Origin: Hyunsoonleella pacifica
GTDB lineage: Bacteria; Bacteroidota; Bacteroidia; Flavobacteriales; Flavobacteriaceae
DNA length: 64,000 nucleotides
Direction: 5' to 3'
Assembly (NCBI RefSeq): GCF_004310335.1
Contig: NZ_SIRS01000005.1
Span: 434,001 to 498,000, forward strand
In this document: positions 1,026-12,026 of the stretch, piece by piece
Position numbering within the stretch: position 1 is the stretch's first letter
Layout: each line of letters starts with the position of its first letter
Position numbers and translations under genes: made by a program
The notes under the pieces: generated by a model
What the model was told of the DNA's origin: nothing
The model's input: only the letters and a program-made list of their open reading frames with translations
The model's database searches: none

Positions 1026-1634
1026 ATGGGTTTTGAATTACCAGAATTGGGCTACGCTTACGATGCGTTAGAACCACATATAGATGCGAGAACAATGGAA
1101 ATACACCATTCTAAACATCACGCAGGATATACAAGTAAATTAAATGCTGCCATTGAAGGTACTGACTTAGAAGGGAAATCTATTGAAGACATTCTTACTA
1201 ATTTAGATATGAGCAACGGAGCAGTTAGAAATAATGGAGGAGGATTTTACAATCATTCTTTGTTTTGGAGTGTTATGAATCCTAATGACGGTGGGTATCT
1301 TTCGGGAGATCTTAAAGATGCTATTGAAGAAGCTTTTGGATCTAAAGACGGCTTCCTAGATGCATTTTCTAAGGCTGCTGCAACTCAATTTGGATCAGGT
1401 TGGGCATGGTTGTGTGTTCAAAAAGGAGGTAAAGTAGAAATTTGCTCTACTGCAAACCAAGATAATCCTTTAATGCCAGGAATTGGCTGTGGCGGAACAC
1501 CTATTTTAGGTATTGATGTTTGGGAACATGCGTACTATTTAAACTACCAAAACCGTCGTCCAGATTACATTAAAGCATTTTTTAGTGTAATTAACTGGAA
1601 TGAGGTTGAAAGAAGATACGCTGAAGCAAAATAA
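1026..1634 (+). CDS. sodA: Superoxide dismutase, Mn-type by residues
   Basis: A cytoplasmic Fe/Mn superoxide dismutase of 202 residues, the usual length, which converts superoxide to hydrogen peroxide and oxygen. Metal ligands are visible: the N-terminal His in MEIHHSKHH, the His of NHSLFW, and Asp and His of DVWEHAYY. Two positions that separate metal preferences favour manganese: Gly in NNGGGFYNH, where Fe enzymes carry Gln, and Gln in TANQDNPLM, where Fe enzymes carry Ala or similar. Cambialistic use cannot be excluded. It is a single gene, divergent from the helicase, with a promoter box just upstream and a decayed dispersed repeat after its stop. Confidence 0.93.
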
Positions 1635-1964: not shown

Positions 1965-2037
1965 AAAAAGGTGAACTTTTTTAAGTTCACCTTTTTGCCC
2001 CAAATCTACCATAAACTTAACCTACTTATGTTATGGT
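1965..2037 (-). ncRNA. Candidate small RNA, copy B of a tandem pair
   Basis: Read on the minus strand, the element starts at 2037 with a stem (2030-2037 paired with 2008-2016, one bulged U, 13-base loop). An 11-base linker AGATTTGGGGC follows (1997-2007). It ends with a perfect 14-bp hairpin, 4-base loop, ending in a T tract (1965-1996). Five bases upstream is TATCTTTG (2042-2049), a perfect Bacteroidetes -7 box, preceded by TTG (2068-2070) at 18 bases. Promoter, body and terminator thus form a complete minimal unit. Copy A at 2207-2279 has the same length and layout. No expression evidence is available, and the family is not one I recognise. Confidence 0.55.
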
Positions 2038-2041
2038 GGTT

Positions 2042-2070
2042 CAAAGATATACTCCAGCTAGAGCTTACAA
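2042..2070 (-). promoter_or_regulatory. Consensus promoter of candidate small RNA copy B
   Basis: On the minus strand this reads TTG, 18 bases, TATCTTTG, fitting the Flavobacterium consensus TTG-N17-23-TAnnTTTG. The start of transcription is expected at about 2036-2037, the first base of the conserved element. Confidence 0.55.
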
Positions 2071-2206
2071 AAATATTTTGGCTGAACTGCTTATATATTG
2101 GCTTAAAAGAAATACTGTAAATAAATGCGGATGAATGGTATTACTAAACGATATAAAATTTGTAAATGCCTTATAATACAATTCTCTTTTCTTAAGAAAA
2201 ATGTAT

Positions 2207-2279
2207 AAAAAAAGGCGAACAGTTGTTCACCTTTTTTTGCCCCAAATCTACCATGAACTTAACCTACTTATGTTATGGT
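2207..2279 (-). ncRNA. Candidate small RNA, copy A of a tandem pair
   Basis: Same architecture and exactly the same 73-base length as copy B. The stem pairs 2272-2279 with 2250-2258 around an identical 13-base loop, with a bulged C where copy B has U. The linker 2239-2249 is identical. The terminator hairpin 2207-2238 differs in sequence, and its helix is unbroken only on the minus strand, where the odd pair is G-U; on the plus strand it would be a C-A mismatch. This supports minus-strand function. A near-consensus -7 box TAAATTGG (2284-2291) sits at the same 5-base distance, but no TTG is found upstream, so this copy may be weaker or depend on purF read-through. Confidence 0.5.
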
Positions 2280-2392
2280 AAGACCAATTTATATCTATTT
2301 AAGATAATCAGAATATTTATTAGATGAATTGCTCATTTATCAGACAAAACGCATCTTTTACGGTTTAACCGTAAGTAAATTATCGAATTGAA

Positions 2393-4291
2393 TTAATAAG
2401 CTCTTTCCTTATTGCCTTCATAAAAATTAATAAATGCTCGGTTTACCACTCTATTACCTCCATCAGTAGGATAATTACCTGTAAAATACCAGTCTCCCAA
2501 ATTGAGTGGACACGCCTTATGAAGGTTTTCAACAGGTTGAAACAATATTTTTACTTCAGCTTTTATTGAATCATCACTAAGCAACTCAGAAATCTTTAAA
2601 GAGACTTCTTCATCTGTAAACGGCGCATAGATTTCTTTTACATAATTCTGAACATTTTTATCTTCAAAATTTTCTTGAGCCTTACACTTATTATATACCT
2701 CTTCTACTAGATGATATTGACCTCGATCTTTCAACAAAGCTAATGCAGCTCTAAAGGCTACTAAATCTTCTAATCGAGCCATATCTATACCATAGCAATC
2801 AGGATAACGAATTTGTGGTGCAGACGAAACTACTACAATACGTTTTGGCTCTAAACGATCAAGCATTTTAAGGATACTCTTTTTTAGTGTAGTCCCTCGT
2901 ACAATACTATCATCTATTATTACCAAATTATCATTTGGTTTTATAACACCATAAGTTATATCGTAAACGTGTGCTACTAAATCATCTCGACTACTATCTT
3001 CAGTAATAAATGTTCTTAGTTTTACATCTTTAATTGCAATTTTTTCTACACGAATTCTTTCAGAAAGAATCTCGGTAACTTCGTCTGCAGAAATATTACG
3101 TCTTCCATTTAAAATGGTTGAAGTTTTTAATTTATTCAATTCAGATTCTGCAGTTTCAATCATACCAAAGAAAGATGTTTCGGCAGTATTTGGTATATAT
3201 GAGAATACAGAATTCTTTAAATCTCCATCAATAGCTTCCAATACTTTAGGCATTAATAATTTACCTAACATCTTACGCTCTTTGTAAATTTCAGCATCAC
3301 TTCCTCTTGAGAAATAAATACGTTCAAAAGAACATGCTTTTCTTTCAAGTGGCTCTAATATCTTTTTAATAGAAAAATCTCCCGATTTTTTAGTAATTAT
3401 GGCATGACCTGGAGGCAACTCGTTTACATCTTCAAACTTTACGTTAAATACAGTTTGAATTACAGGGCGTTCTGAAGCTACAACGATTACTTCATCATCA
3501 CTGTAATAATAACAAGGTCTTATACCAGCTGGATCTCGTAAAACAAATGAATCTCCATGCCCAATTAATCCTGCCATAGCATAACCTCCATCCCAGTTTT
3601 TCGCAGCACGTTTTAATATTTTAGAAACTTTTAGACGTTCTGCAATTAATGGAGAGGCTTGTTGTTTATTGTAACCCTCTTTTTTTAAGTCTTTGTATAT
3701 TTTACTTACAGCGTCATCTAAAAAATGACCTATTTTTTCCATTACCGTAATAGTATCGGTATACTCTTTAGGATGTTGACCTAGCTCTATTAAATTCTGG
3801 AAAAGCTCTTTTACATTAGTCATGTTAAAGTTTCCAGCCATAATTAGGTTACGGTGCATCCAGTTGTTTTGTCTTAAAAAAGGATGTACGCTTTCTACAC
3901 TGTTTTTTCCAAAAGTACCATAACGTACATGCCCCAAAAACAACTCACCTATATAGGGAATATTTTTCTTCTGAAGTGCTACATCCTCATTATATTCTGG
4001 ATGGTTTTCAAATTCAGTATTTATACGCTTATTTATCTGATCAAAAATATCCTGAATGGGTTGCTGTGCAATAGAACGCACTCTACTTATGTAACGTTGT
4101 CCTGGTTTAACATCCAGCTTAATACTTGCAAAACCAGCTCCATCTTGTCCACGGTTATGCTGTTTTTCCATCATCAGATACATTTTATTTACACCATAAA
4201 ATGCACTGCCGTATTTTTTTTTGTAAAATTCTAATGGCTTTTTAAGTCTAATGAGTGCAATTCCGCATTCATGTTTTAAAGCATCGCTCAT
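2393..4291 (-). CDS. purF: Amidophosphoribosyltransferase-like protein, long form
   Basis: 632 residues, longer than classical PurF (about 500). Cys9 in KHECGIAL is the likely N-terminal nucleophile after removal of a short propeptide, followed by RGQDGAG and GHVRYGTFG of the class II glutamine amidotransferase domain. The phosphoribosyltransferase half carries the PRPP loop VIIDDSIVRGTT (about residues 445-456). The classical reaction makes phosphoribosylamine from PRPP and glutamine, the first step of purine synthesis. AGNFNMTNV replaces the usual NGN motif, and about 130 extra residues suggest a diverged paralogue, so the exact role is less sure than the fold. It lies last in a minus-strand group containing purN, but a terminator precedes it. 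Confidence 0.82.
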   Translation of the reverse strand: MSDALKHECGIALIRLKKPLEFYKKKYGSAFYGVNKMYLMMEKQHNRGQDGAGFASIKLDVKPGQRYISRVRSIAQQPIQDIFDQINKRINTEFENHPEYNEDVALQKKNIPYIGELFLGHVRYGTFGKNSVESVHPFLRQNNWMHRNLIMAGNFNMTNVKELFQNLIELGQHPKEYTDTITVMEKIGHFLDDAVSKIYKDLKKEGYNKQQASPLIAERLKVSKILKRAAKNWDGGYAMAGLIGHGDSFVLRDPAGIRPCYYYSDDEVIVVASERPVIQTVFNVKFEDVNELPPGHAIITKKSGDFSIKKILEPLERKACSFERIYFSRGSDAEIYKERKMLGKLLMPKVLEAIDGDLKNSVFSYIPNTAETSFFGMIETAESELNKLKTSTILNGRRNISADEVTEILSERIRVEKIAIKDVKLRTFITEDSSRDDLVAHVYDITYGVIKPNDNLVIIDDSIVRGTTLKKSILKMLDRLEPKRIVVVSSAPQIRYPDCYGIDMARLEDLVAFRAALALLKDRGQYHLVEEVYNKCKAQENFEDKNVQNYVKEIYAPFTDEEVSLKISELLSDDSIKAEVKILFQPVENLHKACPLNLGDWYFTGNYPTDGGNRVVNRAFINFYEGNKERAY

Positions 4292-7481: not shown

Positions 7482-7715
7482 ATGTCAGACATTGCATCAA
7501 GAGTAAAAGCAATAATCGTAGATAAGTTAGGTGTAGATGAGAATGAAGTTGTTGCAGAAGCAAGCTTCACTAACGATCTAGGAGCGGACTCTTTAGACAC
7601 TGTAGAATTAATTATGGAATTCGAAAAAGAATTCGATATTCAAATACCAGACGATCAAGCTGAAAATATTGCAACAGTTGGTCAAGCTATTTCTTATATA
7701 GAAGAAGCAAAATAA
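7482..7715 (+). CDS. acpP: Acyl carrier protein
   Basis: 77 residues, highly acidic, with Ser37 in [16 protein letters not shown] as the phosphopantetheine attachment site. It carries the growing acyl chain in type II fatty acid synthesis in the cytoplasm. It is followed after 13 bases by fabF, giving the standard acpP-fabF-rnc order. An A-rich leader replaces a Shine-Dalgarno sequence, as usual in Bacteroidetes. Confidence 0.98.
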
Positions 7716-7728
7716 GCAAAACATTTTT

Positions 7729-8979
7729 ATGGAAATAAAGCGCGTTGTAGTTACAGGACTAGGAGCTTTAACACCAATAGGCAATACCAAAGATGAATAC
7801 TGGGACGGCCTTATTAATGGTAAAAGTGGTGCTGCGCCTATTACATATTATGATACAGAGAAGTTTAAAACAAAATTCGCTTGCGAATTAAAAGACTTCA
7901 ACGTAACCGATTTTATTCATCGGAAAGAGTCTCGCAAGATGGATAAGTTTGCACAATATGCAATGGTAGCCTCAGATGAAGCTATAGCAGATGCTAAACT
8001 TAACATTGATGAACTTAATAAATTGCGTGTAGGTGTAATATGGGGAGCAGGAATTGGTGGACTTGAAACATTTCAGCAAGAAGTATTGAACTTTGCTGAA
8101 GGAGATGGTACACCTAGGTTTAACCCGTTCTTTATTCCAAAAATGATAGCAGATATAGCACCTGCTAATATCTCCATAAAGTATGGTTTTATGGGGCCTA
8201 ATTATACAACGGTTTCTGCATGTGCATCTTCAGCAAATGCATTATTTGATGCTTTAAACATGATACGTTTAGGGCACTGTGATGTAATTGTAACAGGAGG
8301 TAGTGAAGCAGCCGTAACTATTGCTGGTATGGGTGGTTTTAATGCAATGCATGCTTTATCTACTAGAAATGAAAGTCCAGAAACAGCATCTCGCCCTTTT
8401 GATGGTACAAGAGATGGTTTTGTTCTTGGCGAAGGTGCTGGTGCACTAATTCTAGAAGAATACGAGCATGCCAAAGCAAGAGGCGCAAAAATATATGCTG
8501 AAGTAGCTGGAGGTGGATTATCTTCAGATGCACATCATATGACAGCCCCACATCCAGAAGGTGTTGGCGTAGTTGAAGTCATGAAAAATTGTTTAGATAA
8601 TGCAGGATTAAAACCTGAAGATGTAGATCATATAAACACACATGGTACTTCAACTCCATTAGGCGATGTAGCTGAGTTAAAAGCTATTTCCAAAGTATTT
8701 GGAAATCACGCTAAAAACATAAATATTAATTCAACCAAATCTATGACAGGACATCTTTTAGGTGCAGCTGGGGCTATTGAAGCCATTGCCAGTATTCTTT
8801 CCATAGAAAATGGCATTGTTCCTCCAACTATAAATCACACTACAGTTGATGAGAACATCGATTCAGAATTAAATTTAACACTTAATAAGGCTCAAAAAAG
8901 AGATGTTAAAGTTGCAATGAGTAACACCTTTGGATTTGGCGGACACAACGCTTGTGTGTTATTCAAGAAAATAGATTAA
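7729..8979 (+). CDS. fabF: 3-oxoacyl-[acyl-carrier-protein] synthase II
   Basis: 416 residues, full length. The Cys-His-His catalytic set is visible: Cys165 in VSACASSANA, His in NTHGTSTPLGD (about 304) and His in KSMTGHLLGAAG (about 340). It condenses malonyl-ACP with acyl-ACP in chain elongation. It lies between acpP and rnc with short gaps, so co-transcription is very likely. Confidence 0.97.
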   Translation: MEIKRVVVTGLGALTPIGNTKDEYWDGLINGKSGAAPITYYDTEKFKTKFACELKDFNVTDFIHRKESRKMDKFAQYAMVASDEAIADAKLNIDELNKLRVGVIWGAGIGGLETFQQEVLNFAEGDGTPRFNPFFIPKMIADIAPANISIKYGFMGPNYTTVSACASSANALFDALNMIRLGHCDVIVTGGSEAAVTIAGMGGFNAMHALSTRNESPETASRPFDGTRDGFVLGEGAGALILEEYEHAKARGAKIYAEVAGGGLSSDAHHMTAPHPEGVGVVEVMKNCLDNAGLKPEDVDHINTHGTSTPLGDVAELKAISKVFGNHAKNININSTKSMTGHLLGAAGAIEAIASILSIENGIVPPTINHTTVDENIDSELNLTLNKAQKRDVKVAMSNTFGFGGHNACVLFKKID

Positions 8980-11783: not shown

Positions 11784-11888
11784 GGGCGTTACCCTGCGGG
11801 TCGCGCTTTCCACTGTATCTTTTATACACCAAATGCTGCTTAAAGCAGCATTTGGTGTATAAAAGGATGCCGTTACAATCGCTAACGC
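11784..11888 (+). repeat. Dispersed GGGCGTT element, best-preserved two-hairpin copy
   Basis: The head GGGCGTTACCCTGCGGGTCG contains a small CCC/GGG hairpin. A 22-bp perfect inverted repeat follows (11820-11841 with 11843-11864, one-base centre), then GGAT...CCGTT...ATCGCTAACGC. It lies directly after pyk in the same direction. Related heads occur at 1690, 20750 and 35750. Elements of this style are, to my knowledge, scattered in flavobacterial genomes; the long second hairpin could end transcription or protect mRNA 3' ends. Confidence 0.75.
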
Positions 11889-12026
11889 AATACTTGCCAA
11901 CTTTTAGTTACCCCTTTTCTTTTTGTGTATTTACCTACTAAACCTTTAAAGTAAACCTAAGATTTTACAGTTTTATTCTAAATTTTGATTTGGATTTAAG
12001 TATTTTTTAAAAAAATTTAAACCTCA

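Follow-up and report, generated by a model that had tools for sequence, protein, structure and literature searches.

To our knowledge, post-transcriptional control in flavobacteria has been little explored, and we know of no representatives of the usual RNA chaperones in the Bacteroidota. Among better described systems, tisB/IstR-1 is a trans-encoded type I toxin-antitoxin pair, and in AgrA/RNAIII and VirR/VR-RNA, response regulators of the LytTR type or of a repeat-binding type activate regulatory RNAs through pairs of direct repeats that are spaced by about two turns of the helix. The FopS/GibS sRNAs of Bacteroides (RF04319) are described, in the accessible part of their source, as multicopy RNAs of ~65-70 nt that carry intrinsic terminators and pair at translation starts, with FopS encoded at dispersed loci and pairing with SusC-type targets through a single-stranded 5' seed (PMC11697453). 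Similarly, the available portion of a study of F. psychrophilum reports 85 newly described RNAs, of which Rfp18, the one studied, is conserved in the genus, expressed in F. columnare and predicted to pair with metalloprotease mRNAs via its third stem-loop (PMC9723704).

The locus described here lies in a 64,000-nt stretch of the Hyunsoonleella pacifica genome (the window; G000:C30:434001-498000), where two tandem units are located between genes for a PurF-like protein and SodA. Comparison of genomes alone yields an sRNA family, a specific target with a pairing prediction at the level of single bases, a constrained family of small proteins and a promoter element common to both genes. It is likely that the units encode a multicopy trans-acting antisense RNA that blocks translation of the small protein, with both genes under the control of one activator.

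The sRNA units and their family

Re-reading of the sequence agreed with the original prediction of two 73-nt units on the minus strand at 1965-2037 and 2207-2279, and with the order of parts proposed for both (stem, 13-nt loop, linker AGATTTGGGGC and terminator). The loop and linker, described as identical in the two copies, each occur exactly twice in the window. The 13-base loop is present, although an inner 3-bp UAA/UUA stem can form within it. The units, their parts and their neighbours are as follows.

2393..4291, minus strand: conserved upstream neighbour of the array, which we take to be purF; Pfam finds only glutamine-amidotransferase domains
2207..2279, minus strand: first copy of the sRNA unit, proximal to purF; stem formed by 2279-2272 and 2258-2250; covariance model score 98.8 bits
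2259..2271, minus strand: loop ATAAGTAGGTTAA, first copy, complementary to TTAACCTACTTAT(G) of the target
2239..2249, minus strand: linker AGATTTGGGGC, first copy, predicted to pair with CCCCAAATCTA of the target 5'UTR
2207..2238, minus strand: intrinsic terminator with a G-U pair, first copy
1965..2037, minus strand: second copy of the sRNA unit, proximal to sodA; stem formed by 2037-2030 and 2016-2008; covariance model score 87.6 bits
2017..2029, minus strand: loop, second copy
1997..2007, minus strand: linker, second copy
1965..1996, minus strand: intrinsic terminator, second copy
1026..1634, plus strand: sodA, conserved convergent neighbour of the array, from locus comparison and Pfam

Each unit would be transcribed independently, from its own promoter, as an RNA of ~73 nt with a 5' hairpin, a G-rich single-stranded linker and an intrinsic terminator; the 5' end is predicted at the start of ACCAUAAC and the length at 70-80 nt. 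A small ORF inside the sRNA (AUGGUAGAUUUGGGG...) was considered and dismissed by eye, as its frame is unlike between the copies and enters the terminator. Across the 4.13-Mb genome, a 32-nt core occurs in two places, both exact (reversed control, 0), and no further core match was found with up to 3 mismatches.

When the search was extended to 299 Flavobacteriaceae genomes, a pattern for the 31-nt core (at most 3 mismatches) was found in 154, and its reversed control in none. An alignment of 55 copies from 30 loci and the window, from which one match without a terminator (L009) was omitted, was used to build a covariance model for the family. This search, which had been proposed together with the original prediction, places the RNA in 239 of the 299 genomes at E<=1e-6, and in 212 of 249 if only the better assemblies are counted. 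In searches of 148 genomes sampled from the order and 345 from the phylum, only Flavobacteriaceae gave matches above 60 bits. Arrays within the family score 60 bits or more, except for that of one Flavobacterium genome (G749; 45.2 bits), while the matches listed outside the family reached at most 41.0 bits (order) and 36.8 bits (phylum). Occurrence outside Flavobacteriaceae was rejected for all 13 loci inspected (L054-L066), which are without the core and resemble generic terminators.

Homologues do not drift like neutral sequence: the core is kept in 31 of 31 family loci from the covariance model, and the terminator co-varies. In the terminator helix of the 55 copies, 100% of cells are paired, 6 of 12 pairs are changed on both sides, and 20 cells are compensatory as compared to 1.8 in shuffles. 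The 5' helix, with 92% of its cells paired, is nearly invariant and shows no two-sided change, and covariation therefore tells little about it. The core of ~31 nt hardly varies, a conservation that is inflated by the gathering of most copies with core patterns. Among 180 non-redundant copies, the loop is more informative than the 5' arm (positions -14 to -7). This contrast is favoured by the same way of collecting copies, and would be expected if loop, 3' arm and linker form the functional strand and the 5' arm serves as its cage.

The minus-strand folds of both units are stable (z -4.6 each relative to dinucleotide shuffles, none of 200 of which was as stable). However, the plus strands fold well too (z -4.1 and -5.9), and fold energy alone therefore cannot choose the strand. 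The minus strand is taken to be the RNA strand because of the G-U pairs in the fully paired terminators, on which the first reading had also relied; at one terminator pair, U-A is found in 36 copies, U-G in 18 and C-G in 1. With a predicted promoter, a conserved seed and a terminator with compensatory changes, the units appear to be base-pairing sRNAs with intrinsic termination.

When identical copies are counted once, there are 352 unique copies in 167 loci, with 1-6 per locus. purF is beside the array in 56 of 58 loci of one set and in 65 of 71 of a second set of named records, and sodA in 50 and 60 of these, respectively; the neighbour counts leave out 40 further loci (L161-L200). The sRNA is common in Flavobacterium. 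No exact match that would indicate viral carriage was found in viral_contigs. Flavobacterium sp. HJJ (L053, L123) has five near-identical tandem units with a period of ~242 bp, which is a recent array expansion. Additionally, a Flavobacterium-type unit occurs in a record titled as a Lentimicrobium MAG (L105), which is probably a mis-binned contig.

Predicted pairing with the translation start of a small-protein mRNA

When eight genomes were searched for the complement of the linker, the matches included not only the sRNA genes but also, in two genera, sites immediately upstream of a short ORF (12 loci were read). A longer complement pattern, applied to 15 genomes, together with 17 retrieved regions gave orthologues in ten genomes, including that of H. 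pacifica itself, where CCCCAAATCTATCATAAACTTAA (G000:C23:683899-683921) precedes the ORF MATNLPEQPTKKESKFKETLSEQIRFVKGFLYLTKKIFML.

G000:C23:683933-684055: target ORF MATNLPEQPTKKESKFKETLSEQIRFVKGFLYLTKKIFML, 40 aa, on a contig other than that of the window

The proteins are 26-50 aa long. A profile of ten peptides detects them in 127 of the 299 genomes, in 88 of these at E<=1e-6; only two of the 127 have more than one match. Neither Pfam nor NCBIfam has a match for the two members tested, and comparison of the profile with solved structures gave two matches (E 0.3 and 0.76) that are not meaningful. In the body of the gene, pS is 0.683 and pN/pS is 0.15 (205 sequence pairs, which are not independent), which argues that the gene encodes a real protein under purifying selection. 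Its extreme C-terminus is conserved. The gene lies tail-to-tail with an ABC transporter ATPase gene in H. pacifica, and such a gene adjoins the target in 39 of 40 loci with strong matches (31 of 32 genomes).

The sRNA is present in all 88 genomes with a strong target match (P=4e-11 under independence, with relatedness ignored) and in 37 of 39 with a weak one; of the two exceptions, one has a match that holds a stop (G181) and the other is a genome that is 76% complete (G293). Conversely, a strong target match is lacking in 151 of the 239 genomes that carry the sRNA. In Flavobacterium, no target was found by the protein profile (one genome, G127), by DNA patterns (two, eight and ten genomes) or in the 20 regions read (21 of 36 non-sRNA places). 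The sRNA may thus have other targets, or the gene may have diverged beyond the reach of the profile.

Duplex energies were calculated between the 5' 44 nt of the sRNA and positions -70 to +40 of the target for 100 candidate loci, of which 96 could be located and 87 were unique. The mean over the 87 targets is -38.5 kcal/mol versus -20.0 in shuffles; 78 targets beat 50 of 50 shuffles, and in 70 the most stable duplex spans the start codon. In comparison, 49 window ORFs of >150 codons gave a mean of -17.7 kcal/mol and a mean z of -0.3, with 2 beating all shuffles. The target of H. pacifica itself reaches -42.6 kcal/mol (z -9.5), and in another genome (G219) a perfect 31-nt complement lies just upstream of the target ORF. 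The opening of the sRNA hairpin has a computed cost of ~5.9 kcal/mol. Among the weaker protein matches (L308-L346, mostly of the C-terminal part only), 27 of 36 beat all shuffles, and all nine of the 87 targets that are equalled by at least one shuffle fall in this set. The strong set is not fully independent, since complementarity itself led to 10 of the 87 targets, and since the profile takes in the codons of a second site (see below). It had been proposed that the G-rich linker acts as a pairing seed. Pairing of the linker is supported, but the match is far longer than a seed, with linker, 3' arm and loop all complementary to one mRNA through its start codon.

At least one linker complement occurs in 68 of the 87 mRNAs (shuffles, 8%), and at least two in 30 (mononucleotide shuffles, 0.1%), with up to four sites per mRNA. 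At site 2, around Asn-Leu-Pro-Glu, pS falls to 0.116, about six-fold below its value in the body of the gene, and Leu is encoded by CTA in 50 of 51 genes, as compared to 95 of 470 Leu codons outside the site. Constraint is also seen in the codons that precede site 2 (pS 0.140), which adjoin the start-codon duplex or fall within it. Bacterial genes are often constrained near their starts for other reasons, and start-region constraints of other kinds could add to this low value. Compensatory changes between sRNA and target could not be observed, as the sRNA is too invariant. Overall, the complementarity to the translation start appears to be conserved beyond chance, as is expected of an antisense regulator.

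The exact 31-mer without a terminator (L009) was considered as a broken copy of the sRNA, but is the UTR of the target instead. A match upstream of an ffh-like gene of H. pacifica (L224) precedes the likely start site and was judged to be due to chance. At another locus (L229; G034:C5:605), sRNA-complementary CCCCAAATCTACCATCACTTAACT is located just before a terminator-like hairpin, which follows a gene whose end resembles a T9SS sorting signal.

In the proposed mechanism, a duplex of up to ~44 nt would form between the sRNA and the 5'UTR and start codon of this one conserved small-protein mRNA, and in many genomes the sRNA would also pair with a second site in codons ~3-10. Pairing would occlude the start codon and thereby block translation initiation. 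The 1-6 tandem sRNA copies would confront one mRNA with up to four sites, and this multiplicity of sites is a suggested reason for the tandem arrangement.

A common double upstream box and a second RNA

The two units are preceded by the following promoter elements.

2284..2291, minus strand: -7 box TAAATTGG, first copy; family consensus TATATTTG
2312..2353, minus strand: double upstream activator-type box, first copy; two repeats ~20 bp apart; PWM score 20.5
2042..2049, minus strand: -7 box TATCTTTG, second copy
2070..2111, minus strand: double upstream activator-type box, second copy; PWM score 25.2, the top-scoring site in the window

The promoter originally proposed consisted of a TTG, 18 spacer bases and a downstream box. 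Among the 180 non-redundant copies (<70% upstream identity), the box is strongly conserved at -7 (TAnnTTTG), but the TTG is not, and the region at -33 is merely T-rich. The five-base gap given for the second copy needs correction, as 4 bases lie between TATCTTTG and the unit at 1965-2037. Upstream, the consensus has two boxes, TTT.A.C and TT.A.C, ~20 bp apart. The next non-overlapping double-box site in the window scores 12.6.

The same double box is found at the target gene. A matrix made from sRNA promoters only gives target promoters an average score of 15.3, versus 3.8 for shuffles; 72 of 87 target promoters, and 0 of 49 window ORFs, beat all 40 shuffles. Because both genes carry the box, one activator probably turns on the repressor and its target together. 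The arrangement would be an incoherent feed-forward and formally resembles a trans-encoded type I toxin-antitoxin pair. The spacing of 20 bp recalls the sites of LytTR regulators such as AgrA and AlgR, and the activator is plausibly of this type.

In 12 genomes, the box consensus matched 36 places, target genes among them, versus 4 for the reversed pattern (19 loci read). One match, with 3 mismatches, is upstream of a response-regulator gene (Pfam LytTR and Response_reg; L427, G044:C8:122856-122887); this gene is only a lead to a candidate autoregulated activator of the circuit. In three genera, the double box is upstream of similar secreted proteins that appear by eye to be leucine-rich-repeat proteins (L412, L405, L422). 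At three other loci (L400, L419, L425), it adjoins an opposite-strand gene resembling pdxH by eye, with no clear downstream gene.

The formal resemblance raises the question of whether the locus is a family-wide type I-like toxin-antitoxin module, in which a membrane-active peptide would be held in check by the sRNA array as antitoxin. The peptide is short and ends in a K/R-rich amphipathic or hydrophobic segment, with a charge of +6 in one 29-aa form; the predicted antisense pairing is at the start codon, and strong target matches are never found without the sRNA. However, another of the four peptides computed has a charge of -1, and a strongly hydrophobic stretch of 18 residues is absent from all four. 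Moreover, the single match in nearly all genomes and the synteny with the ABC ATPase gene make the target resemble the core genome rather than a mobile element, and the conserved extreme C-terminus suggests a specific partner. A toxin-antitoxin module is rather unlikely as compared to a multicopy antisense RNA that represses the small-protein gene.

A second conserved RNA of ~150 nt, with the same double box and a terminator, was seen at L408:1500-1760 (G000:C1, near 7575-7760, box at 7575). It occurs in six genomes (L408 and its orthologues L417, L413, L414, L406 and L410) and carries CCC(C/T)AAATCTA, a motif whose C-to-T variants are still able to pair with the linker. It contains no ATG ORF of 28 or more codons, and no Rfam match was obtained in the three loci tested (L408, L414, L406). 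This RNA may be a decoy, or sponge, of the sRNA. A tentative extension of the antisense reading, which we would put forward only as a possibility, is a three-RNA switch of the Flavobacteriaceae: a regulator, possibly LytTR and autoregulated, would drive the sRNA array at purF-sodA, the small-protein mRNA beside a peptide-type ABC transporter, and the ~150-nt sponge RNA that frees the target. The small protein would then perhaps act on membranes or in signalling.

Alternatively, the small mRNA could itself serve mainly as a decoy that titrates the sRNA, whose main targets would be other mRNAs reached through the G-rich linker and loop. Repeated linker-complementary sites per mRNA, the conservation of the sRNA in Flavobacterium where a target was not detected, and the second RNA with its linker complement and box would all fit such a role, as would a possible lipoprotein target with AAAACTTAACCTATGG at its start. 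The latter (L418; G000:C1:193421), a lipoprotein-like gene with an upstream double box whose start matches the sRNA loop, was rejected, as its duplex is weak (-19.3 kcal/mol). Strong amino-acid constraint of the ORF outside the sites is not expected of a decoy, and the duplex is placed on the start codon in most targets, rather than anywhere in the UTR. Titration as the main role is thus quite unlikely, and repression of the small-protein mRNA by the sRNA is the preferred reading.

Comparison with described regulatory RNAs

In an Rfam scan, the second check proposed for the units, neither reaches the gathering score of any Rfam 15 family. The best sub-threshold matches, STnc40 and FopS, are far under the cut-off. 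With homologues that keep the core and scores below every Rfam threshold, the description of the units as an undescribed small RNA is supported. Elsewhere in the window, a Flavo-1 RNA (RF01705) is found at 11795-11893 on the minus strand (55.3 bits). A full-text literature search for the core sequence returned no paper that concerns the sRNA by its title, and among the open-licence papers listed, as judged from titles and the beginnings of abstracts, no description of the sRNA, its target or the circuit was found.

The sRNA could nevertheless have been published under another name, for instance as one of the 85 Rfp RNAs of F. psychrophilum, and an anonymous listing among the RNAs of that study is possible (PMC9723704). 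The number of RNAs newly described there, the genus-wide conservation of Rfp18 and the frequency of the purF-sodA sRNA in Flavobacterium are compatible with this. However, each purF-sodA unit has only two stem-loops and its predicted target is another one, whereas Rfp18, in the available part of its description, is predicted to pair via a third stem-loop, and F. psychrophilum was not identified among the named records of the matches listed. Prior publication under an Rfp name is accordingly improbable. Kinship with FopS/GibS, as a flavobacterial branch that also pairs at start codons, is rejected as extremely improbable: the FopS model aligns to 2204-2263, with UUCAUGGU..AGAUUU in common, but at 21.4 bits against a cut-off of 56 (RF04319), 555 of 5000 shuffles equal the common stretch, none of 21 relatives attains the cut-off, and the single-stranded 5' seed followed by a terminator that the accessible text gives for FopS has no counterpart here, the 5' helix being paired in 92% of cells (55 copies) and forming a hairpin in both window copies.

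The purF-sodA sRNA, as a predicted antisense repressor, can thus be set beside four described systems. Like Rfp18, it is a conserved flavobacterial sRNA with a strong predicted structure; its small-protein target and two stem-loops set it apart from Rfp18 as described in the available text (PMC9723704). It shares with FopS/GibS, as far as the accessible source describes them, the character of multicopy, terminator-ended sRNAs of Bacteroidota that pair (here by prediction) at the translation start, but differs from FopS in its 5' hairpin, its tandem array at one syntenic locus and its near-full-length complementarity to one small-protein mRNA (PMC11697453). To the extent that its source is available, FopS is a functional analogue without significant sequence kinship.

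With tisB/IstR-1, the likeness, which is here drawn from sequence, lies in an antisense sRNA, long pairing at the 5' region of a short-peptide mRNA and presumably separate transcription, in contrast to which the present target is core-like and in conserved synteny, the sRNA is present in 1-6 tandem copies and both genes have a common promoter box. Finally, as in AgrA/RNAIII and VirR/VR-RNA, paired direct repeats lie upstream of a regulatory RNA, although the regulator here is a candidate, with the LytTR gene at L427 as the lead.
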